Origin: a virus
IMG/VR virus record: IMGVR_UViG_3300034691_000038
Span: 1-25,762 of that record
Direction: 5' to 3' (one strand)
DNA: 25,762 nucleotides
Shown here: positions 9,482 through 15,366 of the stretch, piece by piece
How the letters are laid out: every line of letters begins with the position of its first letter
Position numbering within the stretch: position 1 is the first letter of the stretch
Notes under the pieces: generated by a model
What the model was told of the DNA's origin: nothing
Seen by the model: the letters and a program-made list of their open reading frames with translations, nothing else
Database searches by the model: none
Position numbers and translations under genes: made by a program

Positions 9482-9660
9482 AAATCGCCATATATCTTGC
9501 GATCTTGTTGTCTATCGGGCTAATCGGCAGAGCTTGCAATGGCGCATTTGTCAGCGACAAGTTCAAGCCGGTGACCCGGTCTGAAAACCTCGACCGTCTC
9601 CTGAAAGAGTGCGGGCCGACCTGCCTTTCCAAATTCACCAAAACGGAGCGCCCGCAATGA
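9478..9660 (+). CDS. Small membrane-anchored protein, 60 aa
   Basis: The start at 9478 overlaps the zinc-ribbon stop (ATGA) and the stop overlaps the next ATG. Residues 3-20 (IAIYLAILLSIGLIGRAC) form one hydrophobic segment acting as a signal anchor, followed by a hydrophilic, periplasm-facing or cytosolic tail with two more cysteines (KECGPTC). The sequence before the first cysteine does not make a good lipobox. No family is recognised. Confidence 0.62.
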   Translation: MKIAIYLAILLSIGLIGRACNGAFVSDKFKPVTRSENLDRLLKECGPTCLSKFTKTERPQ

Positions 9661-10043
9661 ACGTTCTCGACATGATCAGAAGCAAGATTAGCGGAAGAAA
9701 CGCTGGCAGCATCAGCATCAACGGGCGCAGCTACTCGGGCAACAACATCACGATCAGTGCCGGTGGCATTGTGACCGTGGATGGCATTGTTCAAAGCGGC
9801 GCCGCTTTGGTCGGCCCGATCACCGTGAACATCACCGGCGACATGGAACACGTCAGCAACACCAGCGGCGACATCAACATCACTGGCGATGCGAACATTG
9901 TCATGACCACGTCCGGCGATGTTCGTGTAAAGGGTGACGTCAAAAAGGACGCTTCGTCCACGTCCGGCGACATCACTTGCAGCGAGATTCACGGTGACGC
10001 TTCGACCGTCTCTGGAGACATTTCGAAGAAGTTCTTCAAGTGA
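9657..10043 (+). CDS. Beta-helix/DUF4097-like repeat protein
   Basis: This 128-residue protein (ATG 9657, ATGA overlap) is built from short glycine-aspartate repeats: NITGDMEHVSNTSGDINITGDAN, then TSGDVRVKGDVK, TSGDITCSEIHGD, VSGDIS. The alternation of hydrophobic strand residues with SGD/TGD turns is the pattern of right- or left-handed beta-solenoids such as bactofilins and DUF4097 proteins. The first 14 residues form a short amphipathic helix (NVLDMIRSKIS). A scaffold or polymer-forming role is possible; the target is unknown. It is the gene just before the first DFGSW-tailed protein. Confidence 0.65.
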   Translation: MNVLDMIRSKISGRNAGSISINGRSYSGNNITISAGGIVTVDGIVQSGAALVGPITVNITGDMEHVSNTSGDINITGDANIVMTTSGDVRVKGDVKKDASSTSGDITCSEIHGDASTVSGDISKKFFK

Positions 10044-10384
10044 CCGACTATTACCCGATACCGGGCTATCTCAGGACTGAAGACCTGTCGAACGCCCCGA
10101 CGCTCATGACTGACGGCTGCCCAACCGAATATCCAAGCTGGTATTACGTCGCGCTGCCGGTCGACCACCCAGACGCCCGTGTCTATCCGAACAACATGAC
10201 CTCCTACTGTAAAGGGACTGAAGCGCATGTCGCGCTCAAGCTCTACAAGGAGTTGATCAAAGCTGGGCTGCCAGTGCTGGGTATTGTTCGAGTAAGCGAA
10301 CACGGCGGCGCGGTTGAAGTGCGCAACGAGAACGGCAAAACAAACGGGACAGCGCACCATAACGAGGACTTTGGATCATGGTAA
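10040..10384 (+). CDS. DFGSW-tailed protein 1, 114 aa
   Basis: The start is GTG 10040, overlapping the previous stop as GTGA. The middle (WYYVALPVDHP ... GTEAHVALKLYKELIKAG ... VLGIVRVSEHGGAVEV) resembles a module seen in the 13798, 14555 and 11382 proteins: a strand beginning with an aromatic-rich YxxA motif, a helix, then a strand I-x-x-V with a Gly turn. The last residues are NEDFGSW, here encoded GAC TTT GGA TCA TGG. Four other proteins end DFGSW but use GGG and AGC or AGT for Gly-Ser. The next gene starts inside these tail codons. Function is unknown. Confidence 0.72.
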   Translation: MTDYYPIPGYLRTEDLSNAPTLMTDGCPTEYPSWYYVALPVDHPDARVYPNNMTSYCKGTEAHVALKLYKELIKAGLPVLGIVRVSEHGGAVEVRNENGKTNGTAHHNEDFGSW

Positions 10385-10641
10385 GCATAAACGACGACGA
10401 CCGCTTCGGTGACGACGCGATGGGCCGAGCCATCAAGGCAGACTTCTACGAGAAAGAGGCGAAGGGTCGGGCCGCCCGCGTTCGGGTTATGGCTCAAGAT
10501 ATGCTGGCCGCGCGCTTTGGCGGTTACAAAGAGTCCGGCAGCTTGACGCCGCGCATGGTTGACGAAGCAATGGAAACAGCGATTCGCATCGCTGCGCGGA
10601 TTTACGATGCGTCCATGAAAGCAGAGGTGCGCGATGTCTAA
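10378..10641 (+). CDS. Hypothetical helical protein, 87 aa, without the tail
   Basis: ATG 10378 lies within the last codons of the previous gene (7-nt overlap), with GAGG ten bases upstream. The protein is charged and largely helical (NDDDRFGDDAMGRAIKADFYEKEAKGRAARVRVMAQDML, then MVDEAMETAIRIAARIYDA) and ends EVRDV, so it lacks the GSW tail of its neighbours. It overlaps the next ATG by 8 nt. No family is recognised. Confidence 0.65.
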   Translation: MVSINDDDRFGDDAMGRAIKADFYEKEAKGRAARVRVMAQDMLAARFGGYKESGSLTPRMVDEAMETAIRIAARIYDASMKAEVRDV

Positions 10642-10984
10642 AATCACGACCGAAGATTGCCGCACAGCGATCAGCGACTGGCTGTTGCAGAACGCCGCCC
10701 TTGAAGAGTGGAAAAAGGCTGGTCTGGGTTATCTGGCGATGCGGGAGAATTGGAAACGCCGCTCGAAGGAAATGCGCAACGGCGAAGTGGTGCGGTCGTT
10801 CACTAACACCGAAACGGGATTGGCGTCAATGGACGCGAGCGTCGAGTGCGTCGAGACCAAGTCCGGCAACCTGATCGTGCGCGTGGATGCCGTATCCCAG
10901 CCGCCCGGGTTTCTGCAAACGCTGGCGATCAAGATGGCGCCCGAGCCCGAACCAGACCGCGGCCAAGACTTTGGGAGCTGGTAA
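10634..10984 (+). CDS. DFGSW-tailed protein 2, 116 aa
   Basis: The ATG at 10634 has AGAGGT upstream. It has an N-terminal helical half (EDCRTAISDWLLQNAALEEWKKAG) and a strand-rich second half (ASVECVETKSGNLIVRVDAV). A proline-rich linker (APEPEPDRG) then leads to the tail QDFGSW. The order, two helices then strands with a central G-turn, resembles the 10985 and 14163 proteins more than the module of protein 1, so the tail is attached to more than one fold. GGGAG inside its Gly-Ser codons is the ribosome site for the next gene. Confidence 0.72.
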   Translation: MSKITTEDCRTAISDWLLQNAALEEWKKAGLGYLAMRENWKRRSKEMRNGEVVRSFTNTETGLASMDASVECVETKSGNLIVRVDAVSQPPGFLQTLAIKMAPEPEPDRGQDFGSW

Positions 10985-11380
10985 ATGACCCTCGACGACT
11001 TGAAACGCGCCATTGTCGATCACCTGAAAACCATGTCGCCGGCCCAGCGCTGGATCAACAATGGAATGGATGTCTATCTGGAATCTCTTCGTTGGTCCGT
11101 TCTCGACTACTCACAGGACGATTGCGGCCCGGACGGTGATACGAACATTCGCACTTACGGGATCAAGGGCGCTTCGACCGATGGCAAGCTCTCTGGTCGG
11201 GTTCGAGTCGTCACCACTCACGACGACGAGGAAATCAAGAAGATTGAGGCGGTCATGCCTGAAGGGGAGAAACTAACCGGCTCACAGCACGACTTCATTG
11301 CGCTCGCCCGGGGCGAAGCTGTTTGGCTTATGAAGCAAGCGCCCGATCCGAAAAACCATCCTGACTTTGGGAGCTGGTGA
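10985..11380 (+). CDS. DFGSW-tailed protein 3, 131 aa
   Basis: The gene starts at the base after the previous stop and uses the GGGAG within the previous tail codons as ribosome site (7-nt spacing). Residues 1-40 are helical (LDDLKRAIVDHLKTMSPAQRWINNGMDVYLESL), then strands (IRTYGIKGAS, GRVRVVTTHDDEE) and a second helix. It ends PKNHPDFGSW. The HPD before the tail recurs in the 14163 and 14555 proteins. No function is known. It is probably a distant paralog of the 10634 and 14163 proteins, judged by layout rather than clear identity. Confidence 0.72.
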   Translation: MTLDDLKRAIVDHLKTMSPAQRWINNGMDVYLESLRWSVLDYSQDDCGPDGDTNIRTYGIKGASTDGKLSGRVRVVTTHDDEEIKKIEAVMPEGEKLTGSQHDFIALARGEAVWLMKQAPDPKNHPDFGSW

Positions 11381-11381
11381 C

Positions 11382-11702
11382 ATGTTGAGAGTTTTCGAGC
11401 TTCACGAATACAAACCCGCGAGAAACAGCCCGTTGCCACACTTCGCCATTGCCGAGAGAAAGGGCGCCAGCGGCCTGTTTGAAGGCGTCACCACGGGCGA
11501 CGATCAGCATGTCTGGGCGAACGCTGACGACGCAGCGGCGGTGCGTAACGTCATTGAAAAGAAACACGGGCTCGACCTCTACGTTCTTAAATTGTATGCG
11601 AACGGCGCTATTGAGGAAATCTCTTGGCCGAAAGGCACACCGGGGAAATCCCGGCTCGAACCTGAGCCGAAAGTGCATACGCCCGGTGCCGGGACGTGGT
11701 AA
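11382..11702 (+). CDS. GTW-tailed protein 4, last gene of the first operon, 106 aa
   Basis: I place the start at ATG 11382, eight bases after GGGAG in the preceding tail; a TTG start 15 nt earlier would lie inside it. The body (PHFAIAERKGASGLFEGVTTG ... ADDAAAVRNVIEKKHG ... YVLKLYANGAIEEISW) matches the aromatic/helix/IxxV module of the 13798 and 14555 proteins. It ends HTPGAGTW, a variant of the tail. Because no gene follows, the codons are GGG ACG TGG and the GGGAG ribosome site is lost while Gly-x-Trp is kept. A terminator follows at once. Confidence 0.72.
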   Translation: MLRVFELHEYKPARNSPLPHFAIAERKGASGLFEGVTTGDDQHVWANADDAAAVRNVIEKKHGLDLYVLKLYANGAIEEISWPKGTPGKSRLEPEPKVHTPGAGTW

Positions 11703-11704
11703 CG

Positions 11705-11730
11705 AAAAAGCCCGCGAAAGCGGGCTTTGT
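11705..11730. terminator. Bidirectional intrinsic terminator
   Basis: AAAGCCCGC, loop GAAA and GCGGGCTTT form a nine-pair stem. It ends the plus-strand operon 4 nt after its last stop. On the minus strand it is followed by five T, so it also serves leftward transcription from the 11.7-12.7 kb island. Confidence 0.9.
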
Positions 11731-11747
11731 TGTGGATGGTGGTTGGT

Positions 11748-11936
11748 TCACGCCCTTACCTGCGCCTTGAAGGTCGGCCTTCCCGTTTCCGGGCGCTCCT
11801 GAACTTCACCGCGACTTACTGGGTTTCTCCCGGCACTCAAAGCCAGACTCCATTTACAGCGAAACAGTGGCCGCAGTCCGAAGAGACGCATCATTAAGCC
11901 ATTCGCCGCACCATCATTCTGTATTGCCAGCGGCAT
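11748..11936 (-). CDS. Possible small basic protein, 62 aa (weak)
   Basis: An open frame on the minus strand runs toward the terminator at 11705-11730, whose T-run suits that direction. From ATG 11936 it would encode a basic, soluble protein (MRLFGLRPLFRCKWSLALSAGRN ... RGEVQERPETGRPTFKAQVRA). A GTG start at 11957 is also possible. There is no good ribosome site and no family resemblance, so it may be chance; I include it because the stretch 11731-12085 is otherwise unexplained. The rest of that stretch shows no other plausible gene. Confidence 0.28.
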   Translation of the reverse strand: MPLAIQNDGAANGLMMRLFGLRPLFRCKWSLALSAGRNPVSRGEVQERPETGRPTFKAQVRA

Positions 11937-12063
11937 CTTAAACGGCTGACCCTGCACACACTACACAGGCTTGGACAGGCCCAGATGCGCAGCTTATTGA
12001 TAAGACCCGGTGACCGCGAGGCTCCCCGCAACAACACGTCCATGTTGGTTCATCGGTGCTTGC

Positions 12064-12101
12064 GCCGAGGATACCCAAATCACGGGCAAAAGAAAACCCG
12101 C
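12064..12101. repeat. 38-bp direct repeat, copy 1 (second copy 12361-12398)
   Basis: The unit runs from GCCGAGGATACCCAAATC to AAAAGAAAACCCGC. The two copies differ at one base (A versus G) and lie 297 bp apart. Each leads into a minus-strand terminator hairpin, so the repeat includes the T-run and one stem arm of both terminators. A gene-plus-terminator duplication or a recombination hotspot around the 66-aa gene would explain it. Confidence 0.85.
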
Positions 12102-12112
12102 CGAAGCGGGTT
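12086..12112 (-). terminator. Intrinsic terminator of the 66-aa membrane-protein gene
   Basis: Read on the minus strand, AACCCGC, loop TTCG and GCGGGTT form the stem, followed by TTCTTTT. It lies about 20 nt after the stop of the 12132-12332 gene. Confidence 0.88.
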
Positions 12113-12131
12113 GTCTAATCAGGCTCGCGGC

Positions 12132-12332
12132 TTATTGACCGGTGAGCTTGTCCTTGATGTCTTGAACCTGTTCAGGCGTCAGCTCTGGATAAACCTTTGC
12201 TTCCTCTTCTTTCTTGGAGGCTTCGCGCCCCTTCTTTCGCTTCTGGGCGCGAACATACGCAACTACCGCGAATACGACTGCGCCGGCAACTGCCGCGCCG
12301 ATCAGAATCAAATCAGTATTGGACAAGATCAT
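12132..12332 (-). CDS. Single-pass membrane protein with charged cytosolic tail, 66 aa
   Basis: I start at ATG 12332 because GGAG sits at proper spacing; a frame to 12386 is open but unsupported. Residues about 7-29 (LILIGAAVAGAVVFAVVAYVR) are one transmembrane helix. It is followed by a positive stretch (AQKRKKGREASKK) that should stay in the cytosol, then an acidic, amphipathic end (EEEAKVYPELTPEQVQDIKDKLTGQ). The gene is a separate unit with terminators on both sides. No family is recognised; a Lys-rich single-pass peptide like this could be a holin-like or membrane-remodelling factor, but nothing shows it. Confidence 0.72.
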   Translation of the reverse strand: MILSNTDLILIGAAVAGAVVFAVVAYVRAQKRKKGREASKKEEEAKVYPELTPEQVQDIKDKLTGQ

Positions 12333-12360
12333 TTTTACCACTCCTGCAATGTTTAGAAGT

Positions 12361-12398
12361 GCCGAGGATACCCAAATCGCGGGCAAAAGAAAACCCGC
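12361..12398. repeat. 38-bp direct repeat, copy 2 (first copy 12064-12101)
   Basis: This matches 12064-12101 at 37 of 38 positions. It sits between the 66-aa gene's ribosome site and the terminator that ends the tRNA transcript. Confidence 0.85.
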
Positions 12399-12411
12399 AC
12401 TGGGCGGGCTA
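12385..12411 (-). terminator. Intrinsic terminator of the tRNA transcript
   Basis: On the minus strand AGCCCGC, loop CCAGT and GCGGGTT form about seven pairs, followed by TTCTTTT. It begins one or two bases after the stop of the possible 32-aa peptide. Confidence 0.82.
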
Positions 12412-12412
12412 T

Positions 12413-12511
12413 CTAATTCAGGTTTCTATATGACCCATCGCCACCTGTAACCATTGAGACCGTTTCCAGTCTATTTGCTCTGGCGAGAACAGAAGTTTTT
12501 ACCTTCCGCAT
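12413..12511 (-). CDS. Possible 32-aa basic peptide downstream of tRNA-Met
   Basis: An open frame between tRNA-Met and the terminator reads MRKVKTSVLARANRLETVS and ends GGDGSYRNLN. In-frame residues before the ATG (RLDRINDR) continue the same helical, basic character, so a non-ATG start further up is possible. Its TAG stop lies right against the terminator hairpin, the normal position for a gene. No strong Shine-Dalgarno is visible. It may be coding or may be part of the tRNA precursor's trailer. Confidence 0.38.
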   Translation of the reverse strand: MRKVKTSVLARANRLETVSMVTGGDGSYRNLN

Positions 12512-12569
12512 CCGGTCGTTTATGCGATCCAGACGGTAGCGTTAAGGTTACGTTCCCATTGAAGCTGGT

Positions 12570-12642
12570 TGCGAGAGCAGGATTTGAACCTGCGACATGG
12601 TGGTTATGAGCCACCTGTTCTAACCGGGCTGAACTATCTCGC
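12570..12642 (-). tRNA. tRNA-Met (anticodon CAT)
   Basis: The cloverleaf is complete: acceptor GCGAGAT paired with TCTCGC, D arm TTCAGCCCGGTTAGAA, anticodon stem GGTGG/CCACC with loop CTCATAA, and T arm GCAGG/CCTGC with loop TTCAAAT. The discriminator is A and CCA is not encoded. The anticodon CAT could also mark an isoleucine tRNA whose C34 becomes lysidine; sequence alone does not settle this. It lies 6 nt after tRNA-Asn. Confidence 0.93.
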
Positions 12643-12648
12643 AATGTG

Positions 12649-12725
12649 TGGCTGGCAAGCTTGGATTCGAACCAAGGACCTATCGGTTAACAGCCGATTG
12701 CATCTACCAACTGTGCTACTCGCCA
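12649..12725 (-). tRNA. tRNA-Asn (anticodon GTT), CCA encoded
   Basis: Acceptor TGGCGAG pairs with CTTGCCA, the D arm contains AGTTGGTAGA, the anticodon stem ATCGG/CCGAT encloses CTGTTAA, and the T arm is CTTGG/CCAAG around TTCGAAT. A G discriminator is followed by encoded CCA. It is first in the two-tRNA transcript and ends just before tRNA-Met. Confidence 0.94.
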
Positions 12726-12737
12726 AATTCTAGTGCA

Positions 12738-12774
12738 ACCGGCGTTCCTCGTGGGGAGCGGGCAGAACGCCGGT
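12738..12774 (-). other. Ten-pair perfect stem-loop upstream of the tRNA pair
   Basis: ACCGGCGTTC and GAACGCCGGT are exact inverted repeats around a 17-nt loop, with no T-run. It begins 12 nt before the 5' end of tRNA-Asn on the minus strand, so it may guide processing of the tRNA precursor or protect its 5' end. The remaining 12775-12907 holds the start signals for the next plus-strand operon; a TTGAAT/GATAAA pair (18-bp spacer) on the minus strand near 12850-12880 could drive the tRNAs. Confidence 0.5.
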
Positions 12775-12907
12775 CTGATCAACAAGCGGTAGGAGTGGAC
12801 CACTTGTTAACGTGAAGCGATTCTGCCAGCGCTTTTCCACACTGGCAAGCGTTTTTATCCTAAAAGTTTCACTTATCATTCAAATACACCAAAACAGGGC
12901 TTTCCCA

Positions 12908-13306
12908 ATGTCTACAGACAGCGAGCGCGACCTTTACGTCGTCACCAAGCATTTGAACGGTGACAAGGACGTTGAACGCCATTTTGTTCAGTTGCCGCAC
13001 TACAACGAAAAAGGCTGGTATACGAACGGCATCAGCATGAACGCTTTCCGTCACCGCATGCAGAAACGCCACATCAAGTCGCGCAAGATGGACGGCGACT
13101 GGGTTGCGCAAGCATTCCGGGTCAGCTTCTTCTTCACCGTCAAGTTCAAGTCGGACTTCGACAGCGACCAGAAAATCTGGGACGAATGCGGCGTGCCGGA
13201 TTGCCCAATACTGGAGTTTCATCACGCTTCGCTGAAGGCGTTCTACGAACACATTGGCTACGACCCGAAGAAAAACAAACTTGCAGTGGAGCCCGTATTG
13301 CTATGA
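12908..13306 (+). CDS. Hypothetical protein, 132 aa, first gene of second plus-strand operon
   Basis: The start is at ATG 12908 with CAGGG upstream; an open extension to 12812 is upstream leader. The protein is soluble, basic and aromatic (KHLNGDKDVERHFVQLPHYNEKGWY, FRHRMQKRHIKSRKMDGDW, FRVSFFFTVKFKS) with a helical end (HHASLKAFYEHIGYD). It contains one C...C pair (DECGVPDCP). I do not recognise the family. It overlaps the M23-like gene by ATGA. Confidence 0.68.
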   Translation: MSTDSERDLYVVTKHLNGDKDVERHFVQLPHYNEKGWYTNGISMNAFRHRMQKRHIKSRKMDGDWVAQAFRVSFFFTVKFKSDFDSDQKIWDECGVPDCPILEFHHASLKAFYEHIGYDPKKNKLAVEPVLL

Positions 13307-13794
13307 AAAGCCCATTTTCCCTACCTGTTCAAATCCCGTGCGGCGACCACGCCGGTGCGTTCGGCGCCGTGCGCAAGCATGACATCCACACCGGTGTCGA
13401 CCTCTACGCGCCGCATGGCACGCCAGTCTTCGCGATGGAACCCGGCGTGGTCGTGGCGCTCATTTACGACTTCACCGGCGAGTGGGCCGGCAGCCCGTGG
13501 TGGAACTCCACCGGTGCCGTGATGGTCGAGGACGGCTCGGGTGTCTGGCTCTACGGTGAGATTCAGCCAAGTGAAGCGCTGAAGGTCGGCATGAAGGTCG
13601 ACTGCGCCGACACGCTGGGTTACGTTCAGACCGTGCTGAAGGTCGATAAGGGCGCGCCAATGAGCATGCTGCATGTCGAGCGCTACACGCGGGGCTCTAG
13701 CGCCCCTATCAACGTCTGGTCACTCGGCATGCTGAAGCCTGAAAAGCTGATTGACCCAACCGGCATGCTGGCCGGCATCGACTACGGGCTCTAA
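13303..13794 (+). CDS. M23-like (lysostaphin-fold) protein, possibly inactive
   Basis: This 163-residue protein (ATG 13303) has the first M23 zinc motif, HxxxD, in RKHDIHTGVDLYAPHGTPVFA, followed by the typical G-x-V-x-A strand (EPGVVVAL). The second motif, normally HxH, appears as SMLHVERY, so its first histidine is replaced by Met. That may leave a fold with reduced or no peptidase activity. M23 domains cut peptidoglycan cross-links, but there is no signal peptide and the gene sits among small cytosolic proteins, not lysis or tail genes. The family call is good; the activity is doubtful. Confidence 0.72.
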   Translation: MKSPFSLPVQIPCGDHAGAFGAVRKHDIHTGVDLYAPHGTPVFAMEPGVVVALIYDFTGEWAGSPWWNSTGAVMVEDGSGVWLYGEIQPSEALKVGMKVDCADTLGYVQTVLKVDKGAPMSMLHVERYTRGSSAPINVWSLGMLKPEKLIDPTGMLAGIDYGL

Positions 13795-13797
13795 ATC

Positions 13798-14163
13798 ATG
13801 GGCTTCAACCTGTCCAAAATCCCAGAGCGTCTGCGATCCGGTGCCGCTGGTTTGTATTACGCCGCGCACAAGTCACCAGCCGGCGAGTGGGTTGCCGTTT
13901 CTGACGACGATCCGAAGGACGACGTTCGCAACTGGTCAAACTTTGCGTCCGCGCTGAGTTCAGCTAAGACATGGTCGAAGTGGTGCCGGATTGACGCGAT
14001 CATTTTCGTTCATAGTGGCGGGCGGCAGTATTTGGACATGGATGGGACAGTGATGGAGCCATCGTCAACGCTTGAACCAGATGGCTGGACCGGCGAAGAC
14101 ATTCTTGTCTCGCCAGATGGCTTGCCGACCCCGCCACGCTATGCAGACTTTGGGAGCTGGTAA
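13798..14163 (+). CDS. DFGSW-tailed protein 5, 121 aa
   Basis: It starts three bases after the M23-like stop and ends RYADFGSW. Residues about 15-85 (GLYYAAHKSPAGEWVAVSDDD ... NWSNFASALSSAKTWSKWCRIDAIIFVHSGGRQYLDM) closely follow the first module of the 14555 protein. Both have an aromatic plus xxA start, GEWV, an Ala/Ser helix, then DAII-x-V and a Gly turn. The two are clearly paralogs. The tail codons contain GGGAG, which is the ribosome site for the overlapping next gene (TAATG). Function is unknown. Confidence 0.75.
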   Translation: MGFNLSKIPERLRSGAAGLYYAAHKSPAGEWVAVSDDDPKDDVRNWSNFASALSSAKTWSKWCRIDAIIFVHSGGRQYLDMDGTVMEPSSTLEPDGWTGEDILVSPDGLPTPPRYADFGSW

Positions 14164-14555
14164 TGGACGAGACAATGGAAAGGGCGATCAGAGAGCTTTG
14201 CGCGTTTCTGCCGCAGTGCAACGGGCGTGAGGTCTGGAGCGAGTTCAACGTGCGTGAATACCTGTCGGTGACATCGTGGCGGGTTGTCAGGTCAGAACAG
14301 GAAGCCGGCGACGGCTTCGCTGACTTCTGGATCGAAAGCACGCTTGGCAGCATGCCCGGGGAGTTCCAAGTGCGTATCGACCTGACAACCGGGCGGCGGC
14401 TGGGTGTTTACTGGTCTGCGCAGAGTTTGACAGACCCCGAACTGATCAAGACGGCCGCCACGCTGCTTGACCTGACATTCACGCCGTTCATGGTTGATCG
14501 GTTGAGAAAGCAACAGCAGAGCCATATCGACCATCCTGACGCGGGGAGCTGGTAA
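14163..14555 (+). CDS. DAGSW-tailed protein 6, 130 aa
   Basis: It begins on the last base of the previous stop (TAATG). The body starts with a helix (ETMERAIRELCAFLPQC), then strands (YLSVTSWRVVRSEQ, GDGFADFWIEST, GEFQVRIDLTTGRRLGVYW) and a final helix (TDPELIKTAATLLDLTFTPFMVDRLRKQQQ). It ends HIDHPDAGSW, where Ala replaces the Phe of other tails. The helix-strand order resembles the 10634 and 10985 proteins. GGGAG in the tail codons serves the next gene, again joined by TAATG. Confidence 0.74.
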   Translation: MDETMERAIRELCAFLPQCNGREVWSEFNVREYLSVTSWRVVRSEQEAGDGFADFWIESTLGSMPGEFQVRIDLTTGRRLGVYWSAQSLTDPELIKTAATLLDLTFTPFMVDRLRKQQQSHIDHPDAGSW

Positions 14556-15079
14556 TGGGCCACAGATTTGTCAGCATTCCAAAGTCCTCTGAAAAGCCGC
14601 GCTTCTACCCGGCGCAGGAGGATGACGTTGGCGAGTGGGTTGGCGTCACGGGCATTAAAGACGTCGATTATCGCGACAACGTGAAGGCGGCCCGGGCCGC
14701 TGCCGCAGGGTTGAGTGACGCTGGCGCCCGGATTGACGCCATCATTATGGTTGACCGCACCGGTTCAGCGGCGCTGAAAGTGGAGGTCGACTCGGTGGAA
14801 ACGCACAAGACGTTTCTTATTCCAGACAAAATCTTCGAAAACGAAGCCCGGTTCTACATCGCCGCACCAAACGACAACTTTGACAGCGCATGGACCGGTG
14901 TCGGCAAAGCAGAGGGTTATTGGCGCAGTTTGATGGAAGCGAGGTCTCAGGCTGAGCGTTTTATCAGGGAAGGTGTAAATGCGAGCAGGGTCATCAAAGT
15001 GACGAAGTCCGGTCGGGAATACTTCAACGTCACCGAAACATCCATCAAAAACACACATCCAGACTTTGGGAGTTGGTAA
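14555..15079 (+). CDS. DFGSW-tailed protein 7 with a tandem internal duplication, 174 aa
   Basis: This protein contains the module twice. The first (about 16-86) runs RFYPAQEDDVGEWVGVTG, then an Ala-rich helix, then DAIIMVDRTGSAALKVEVDSVET. The second (about 97-165) runs RFYIAAPNDNFDSAWTGVG, then ARSQAERFIREG, then SRVIKVTKSGREYFNVTETS. Start (RFYxA), middle (W-x-GV) and end (IxxV...G...xVxxxxT) line up in both halves and with the 13798 protein. The tail is NTHPDFGSW; its GGGAG lies 9 nt before the next ATG. This is the strongest internal evidence that the tailed proteins arose by duplication. Confidence 0.77.
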   Translation: MGHRFVSIPKSSEKPRFYPAQEDDVGEWVGVTGIKDVDYRDNVKAARAAAAGLSDAGARIDAIIMVDRTGSAALKVEVDSVETHKTFLIPDKIFENEARFYIAAPNDNFDSAWTGVGKAEGYWRSLMEARSQAERFIREGVNASRVIKVTKSGREYFNVTETSIKNTHPDFGSW

Positions 15080-15081
15080 CC

Positions 15082-15366
15082 ATGATCACATCCGCAGCAG
15101 ACTTTGAATTTGCCTTTGTCAGAACAGGCGAGGGTGAAATTGTCATTGAAATGAGCCCGAAGCATTACCCGGAATACGATCAGCATATTGGCGAGTTCGT
15201 AGCGCCGTTCTGGCCGAAAGACATCGTGATGGATGAAGTGGCAGAGCTGTCGTTCGTCATCAGTGAAGAGCTGACCGAAGAGCAGGTCAAGGAAAAGCTG
15301 GTCGCTGCCGGCTTTGAATACTCGCAGGCATATCAAGACTTAGTCGACGAGCATATGGGGCTTTGA
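15082..15366 (+). CDS. Hypothetical acidic protein, 94 aa, without the tail
   Basis: The start is ATG 15082, nine bases after GGGAG in the previous gene's tail codons; an in-frame TTG at 15073 lies inside that gene. The protein is acidic, with a strand-rich first half (FEFAFVRTGEGEIVIEMS) and a helical end (LTEEQVKEKLVAAGFEYSQAYQDLVDEHMGL). It has no GSW tail, and no coupled gene follows directly. The family is not recognised. Confidence 0.68.
   Translation: MITSAADFEFAFVRTGEGEIVIEMSPKHYPEYDQHIGEFVAPFWPKDIVMDEVAELSFVISEELTEEQVKEKLVAAGFEYSQAYQDLVDEHMGL

Follow-up and report, generated by a model that had tools for sequence, protein, structure and literature searches.

Seven small proteins encoded in the virus fragment IMGVR_UViG_3300034691_000038 end in closely similar residues, mostly DFGSW. 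This tail is one version of a C-terminal motif, aromatic-Gly-x-Trp/Phe, that is enriched across one phage lineage, and it is very probably a linear binding signal of some kind that acts at the protein level. More specifically, and with a rough probability of 45%, we read it as a docking motif by which many unlike proteins of a phage would bind one hub of a replication or recombination type. The window referred to below is the whole 25.8-kb stretch (25,762 nucleotides).

An earlier examination of the letters alone (the sequence-only reading) had claimed seven small proteins ending in (D)(F/A)G(S/T)W, and all seven C-termini were verified exactly in the translations of the window's open reading frames. 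All seven genes are on the plus strand. DFGSW closes the proteins of 10040..10384 (114 amino acids (aa), GTG start, end HNEDFGSW), 10634..10984 (116 aa, GQDFGSW), 10985..11380 (131 aa, NHPDFGSW), 13798..14163 (121 aa, YADFGSW) and 14555..15079 (174 aa, THPDFGSW). DAGSW is the end of 14163..14555 (130 aa, DHPDAGSW) and GAGTW that of 11382..11702 (106 aa, HTPGAGTW), for which ATG at 11382 is most likely the start, in preference to the TTG at 11367 given in the reading frame list. HPD ahead of GSW or AGSW, also claimed for three of the seven, is present in the proteins stopping at 11380, 14555 and 15079. The genes are spread over two adjacent operons, with the gene ending at 11702 the final one of the first.

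Chance is excluded as the source of these ends. Among the window's predicted genes, five proteins close with [FY]G.[FW], where the frequency of this pattern inside proteins predicts 0.015 (P about 5e-12). An unsupervised test of all triples of the last six residues, run without naming the motif, found xDFGxx five times, with a shuffled maximum of three. As for the bodies, only those of 13798..14163 and 14555..15079 are clearly homologous (E about 6e-8), the second being the longer relative, and the remaining ones have at best weak matches to each other outside the tail. A common tail on unlike bodies, as proposed, is what the window holds.

In terms of lineage, a block of ParB, ABC-ATPase-like and helicase genes is common to the window, Salmonella phage SSU5 and the Nickieviruses. 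The same block is found in Rhizobium phages RHph_N1_15, RHEph10, V1VFA-S and X66 and in Stenotrophomonas phages ANB28 and BUCTxx99. These related phages have sizes of about 103-120 kb. The closest relative contig (about 82-87% nucleotide identity) stops just short of the tail region. The tRNA-Met and tRNA-Asn genes at 12566-12725 resemble the tRNA cluster of Nickievirus-type Pseudomonas phages, and gave the first hint of kinship.

Across 11 genomes, window included, there are at least 82 tailed proteins in 47 body families defined by similarity. This count is a minimum, because the simple codon-usage caller used for the relatives misses some short genes (e.g. ANB28 100370 and 102375), and it leaves out four further matches judged spurious. 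Many of the tailed genes match coding sequences in GenBank. The Rhizobium phages have eight (RHph_N1_15, FGRF or YGRF), seven (RHEph10), seven (V1VFA-S) and six (RHph_X66), and the Stenotrophomonas phages ANB28 and BUCTxx99 have ten each, mostly YGxW. Nickie and hairong carry 12 each (FGx[WF][AS] and similar), SSU5 has two (WATW) and Cyrano one (WGSW). A stretch of eight consecutive annotated small genes in ANB28 all have an aromatic YGxW tail.

The enrichment over internal frequency extends to eight relatives plus the window. For the terminal pattern [FYWAMI]G.[FW][AS]?, a generalised motif defined after the relatives had been seen, the tail-rich genomes reach P of about 8e-9 to 9e-20 (BUCTxx99), and a third pattern in RHph_X66 has P 4e-9. 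Several genomes form pairs that are not independent (ANB28/BUCTxx99, RHph_N1_15/RHEph10, V1VFA-S/X66, nickie/hairong), which leaves about six independent observations. Among the four control phages, T5 and PR1 have no match, while a single isolated match occurs in T4 and another in N4, with none of these significant beyond P 0.05. The unsupervised triple test recovers the tail in seven genomes, with Ala-rich ends dominating in V1VFA-S and X66. In the Rhizobium phages (L090-L107, L153-L158) many proteins end in AA or EAA, with AA in 18-24 of about 160 proteins in three phages. In V1VFA-S and X66 such ends reach or exceed the shuffled maximum, and they may reflect composition or a separate C-terminal signal.

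The sequence-only reading had named a lack of enrichment in related phages as a refutation; the relatives are enriched, and each tail-rich one has its own tail version. These are [HN]PN[FY]GRF in Rhizobium phages, [ND]YGxW in Stenotrophomonas phages, FGx[WF][AS] in Pseudomonas phages and W[GA][ST]W in SSU5-like phages. The versions are coherent by host group, with a terminal F in 28/28 Rhizobium-phage tails and a W in 20/20 Stenotrophomonas-phage tails, while every Pseudomonas-phage tail has an additional A/S (or G). When the tails are pooled, the aromatic residue is often preceded by P or E at a distance of two or three residues, and immediately by N, D or G. The core is F/Y (W), then G (78 of the 82), a free position, and W or F. 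Literal DFGSW is not the shared unit; what is conserved across the relatives is aromatic-Gly-x-Trp/Phe.

As for direct homologues of the window's tailed proteins, none were found by the pattern scan or by tblastn (three proteins tried), and there was no convincing Pfam or PHROG match. IMG/VR scans, which required 14 fixed bases and covered few codon choices, gave three matches to exact HPDFGSW-stop, all out of frame. Matches to DFGSW-stop were mostly out of frame too, but yielded two contigs of the same lineage, L019 and L053. Both have the helicase-primase order of the lineage, and the L019 primase, the one compared, is most like the primases of this lineage. The WGR-domain protein directly after the primase is tailed in both, ending EDFGSW in one and GETWGSW in the other, and in L053 the next small protein ends GEDFGSW. 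Rhizobium phage RHph_N1_10 has a WGR protein at the equivalent place, with the end NANFGRF, next to a protein ending HNNFGRF. This equal arrangement with a different tail showed that conservation does not extend to the literal string. The DFGSW-stop scans also led to an unrelated-looking family of proteins of about 142 aa (L018:9211-9639, L051, L058, L071), which ends in WPHNDFGSW in all four members. These lie in other phage contigs, beside structural-looking genes, and their ends may be a chance likeness or a related use of the tail.

Conservation is at the protein level, as the varied glycine and arginine codons indicate. The fixed glycine is written GGG 28 times, GGA 19, GGC 17 and GGT 14, and the FGRF arginine as CGC, CGG, AGA or AGG. 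Tails confined to duplicated nucleotides, which would have counted against the sequence-only reading, are not what the relatives show: they have different codons as well as different versions.

There is also a nucleotide layer, which the sequence-only reading had overlooked. The common tail DNA, GACTTTGGGAGCTGGTAATG, includes GGGAG, a Shine-Dalgarno-like sequence placed 6-9 bases 5' of the next start codon in five of the seven window tails. For the gene at 10985 it lies at 10973..10977 on the plus strand, and the equivalent sites are 11369-11373, 14152-14156, 14544-14548 and 15068-15072. Nucleotides at these sites are therefore under two constraints. Together with the ATGA overlaps in several Pseudomonas-phage tails, this could suggest that the repeated DNA serves the next gene in ribosome binding or coupling, or marks a recombination boundary, with the peptide as a by-product. 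We find this hardly credible. A coupling element would keep a fixed spacing to the downstream start whatever the upstream frame; the window copies are in register with the upstream stop and not with the variable downstream start, their spacing is 6-9 bases, and one start is inside a tail. No out-of-frame tail copies were found in the window. The tail at 10384, GGA TCA TGG, has four nucleotide changes and no amino-acid change relative to the consensus (random chance about 2e-4), and the ATG of gene 10378 falls inside its Trp codon. The tail at 11702 is in the final gene ahead of a terminator-like hairpin, where no downstream gene needs a ribosome-binding site. This hairpin, AAAGCCCGC-GAAA-GCGGGCTTT (11707..11728, plus strand), was read from the sequence directly 3' of the stop, and is not among the hits of the terminator scan. 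The relatives use all four glycine codons, and many of their tails have no such site. The Shine-Dalgarno effect is thus real, yet it cannot be the cause of tail conservation. Mycobacteriophage start-associated sequences and ribosome-binding repeats are similar in that a DNA repeat with a Shine-Dalgarno core precedes several genes, but the repeat here stays in the reading frame of the upstream gene, and what is conserved is the peptide, not the DNA. In nickie (L108-L113) and hairong (L171-L176) the extra Ala/Ser is often GCA-TGA or TCA-TGA, making an ATGA overlap with the next gene, and it is retained also where this overlap is absent.

Common descent of the tailed proteins would be another source of a shared end. 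They could be fast-diverged paralogues of one ancestor in which the tail stayed alike, and some bodies are indeed paralogous (13798 and 14555 in the window, 83201 and 83767 in RHEph10). With 47 body families and recognisably different domains, WGR and BRCT, this is very improbable, and even then the retained tail would need a function of its own.

Two genomic positions of tailed genes are conserved, both on the replication side. The first is the gene after the primase, which in most phages encodes the WGR protein, and whose orthologues retain the tail despite strongly diverged bodies. SSU5 and Cyrano have at this position a tailed protein without detected similarity to the WGR protein. The second lies between an SbcC-like gene and RuvC, where nickie, RHph_N1_15 and SSU5 have a tailed gene; V1VFA-S has a tailed gene before RuvC. 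As for the relative G002 (43% identical), we considered and rejected it as a tail-free genome. Its tail enrichment is not significant, but the core occurs near the C-terminus at both conserved positions (NPNWGALAGLGSLS, NPHFGILKL), with NPNWGAL close to the protein end after the primase and a degenerate tail form before RuvC. In terms of domains, only WGR and BRCT were recognised in tailed proteins, BRCT twice, both among the eight consecutive ANB28 genes. A dCMP-deaminase-like protein ending KGDW is a doubtful tail and stands outside the count.

Tails are nearly absent from virion modules. None of 161 structural or lysis genes was counted as tailed, compared to 44 of 596 elsewhere (P 3e-5). 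The value becomes P = 0.002 if two set-aside pattern matches in the ANB28 structural region are counted, a 1135-aa tail-type protein ending RIGIW and an overlapping short frame. This avoidance makes virion packaging, one of the roles first suggested, less favoured. In that role the tail would bind capsid, scaffold or portal at assembly, and accessory proteins would thereby enter the particle and be delivered together with the DNA. Encapsulin cargo loading offers the analogy, as different proteins there likewise carry one C-terminal targeting peptide on a linker, and by gene position the tailed proteins are not themselves virion components. The two most conserved tailed positions lie among replication genes, where an action inside the cell is the simpler assumption, and we consider packaging rather improbable.

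The reading we favour is that the tail would be a C-terminal short linear docking motif, with the pooled consensus P-x-[N/D]-[F/Y]-G-x-[W/F]-(A/S)-end, which many unrelated non-structural proteins within one phage lineage carry behind a polar linker. Its anatomy is that of a docking peptide, given unlike bodies, a small terminal motif, a version coherent within each phage group, and a polar linker (the stretch that precedes the tail is less hydrophobic than its counterpart in untailed proteins, 0.35 vs 0.44). Every tailed protein of a phage would bind the one pocket on a single hub in competition with the others, and accessory proteins of differing activity (WGR, BRCT and many uncharacterised domains) would thus be brought to one place. 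From the two conserved positions and the WGR and BRCT domains we infer that this hub most likely belongs to the phage-directed replication or recombination machinery. The hub could also be of host origin, for instance the sliding clamp of the host, since no recognisable clamp gene turned up in these phages. Of the sorting, docking or processing signal first proposed, the protein-level signal is strongly supported and a shared partner with a peptide groove is its best reading, although no partner was found.

Several observations weigh against docking on a phage replication hub. A gene-presence profile revealed no phage gene restricted to tail-rich phages and pointed to no partner, which would make the partner either a core protein common to all or a host protein. 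Since the tail versions go with host groups, a partner from the host fits as well as one from the phage. The polymerase, helicase, primase, SSB and RecA of these phages have no tail, no function is known for most of the tailed proteins, and several tail-rich operons do not adjoin replication genes. The position of the free C-terminal carboxylate is not fixed, given the extra A/S in Pseudomonas phages. Lastly, AlphaFold models reach a mean predicted local distance difference test score of 40 for the 14555..15079 protein and 50 for the L019 WGR protein, too weak for fold searches or for demonstrating tail exposure. The weak model of the former possibly contains a duplicated unit.

Some of these points would fit a host-directed tag, which we regard as unlikely. 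Here the tail would bind a conserved host protein outside replication, such as RNA polymerase, a chaperone, a protease adaptor or a membrane component, and early phage proteins would redirect that factor, the version following the host group. The absence of a phage gene confined to tail-rich phages agrees with this, as do the host-specific residues and the many tailed genes that are small, outside the core and without known function. The most conserved tailed positions are nevertheless in the replication/recombination block, and host and phage phylogeny are confounded, which keeps the host trend from counting as independent evidence.

A putative degron or stability signal, another of the roles first suggested, would determine how long early proteins last by way of a protease or a protease adaptor. 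It would explain the C-terminal placement and the occurrence on many unlike proteins of early type. Nican01 and RHph_N1_15 have a gene annotated as HslV-like. The Pfam proteasome/HslV model has no match above cut-off in these genomes, and the motif is unlike the known ClpXP C-terminal tags. We hold a degron to be improbable.

Docking on a single hub has a precedent, close in logic, in phage T4. There gp43, gp55 and gp33 have highly similar C-termini that can replace one another and that bind gp45, and in gp55 the motif is placed behind a divergent linker (PMC2988020). In both cases several unlike proteins carry a short hydrophobic C-terminal motif behind a variable linker. There are three such proteins in T4 and up to a dozen per genome here, the sequence here (aromatic-G-x-W/F) is a different motif, and the phage polymerase does not carry it (ends such as QVADIFSV and ASVVDLLD). 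Sliding clamp profiles gave no candidate, PF02916 (gp45) matching T4 only and PF00712 (DnaN) none of 11. With neither clamp family present, and with an untailed polymerase and gp32-like SSB, these phages are not members of the T4 system. SSB-type acidic tips (E. coli SSB-Ct, T7 gp2.5 and gp4) are also short terminal peptides with an aromatic end that recruit partners. There the hub protein bears the tail, whereas here many clients do, and the gp32-like SSB of this lineage has an acidic end without the motif, e.g. VLADLDSI or LLAELDAL.

Tail-less genes also lie among the tailed ones, all on the plus strand. Three had been named earlier and stand, and 12908..13306 had been missed as a further one. 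The gene at 10378..10641 (87 aa) starts within the tail of the preceding gene, 12908..13306 belongs to PHROG 9342 (function not assigned in PHROG), 13303..13794 has an M23-type peptidase domain, and 15082..15366 (94 aa) is 3' of the last tailed gene. The M23-type peptidase gene is thus located among tailed genes and not in a lysis module. Immediately 5' of the first tailed gene is a gene at 9660-10043 (PHROG 3163) with repeated TSGDI-type units, which has a homologue in G002 (L010:18690-19037). Between the tailed operons, near-identical 38-base copies, GCCGAGGATACCCAAATC[A/G]CGGGCAAAAGAAAACCCGC, at 12064-12101 and 12361-12398 form terminator-like hairpins on the minus strand, flanking a small minus-strand gene (12132-12386).

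Searches of open-licence papers for the string DFGSW (one irrelevant hit) or for a shared phage C-terminal motif returned nothing, and no described counterpart of the tag was found there. We give an even chance to the wider reading that the tail is a lineage-private, evolvable C-terminal address code that recruits dozens of unrelated accessory proteins to one receptor. The version would have changed coherently per phage group, and a new gene would join by gaining a handful of residues. If so, accessory genes would plug into the phage machinery through a short interchangeable tail, and the lineage would show a peptide code and its receptor changing together across hosts. A single partner would offer a way into a large group of small phage proteins that have no known function, as many as a dozen in each genome.

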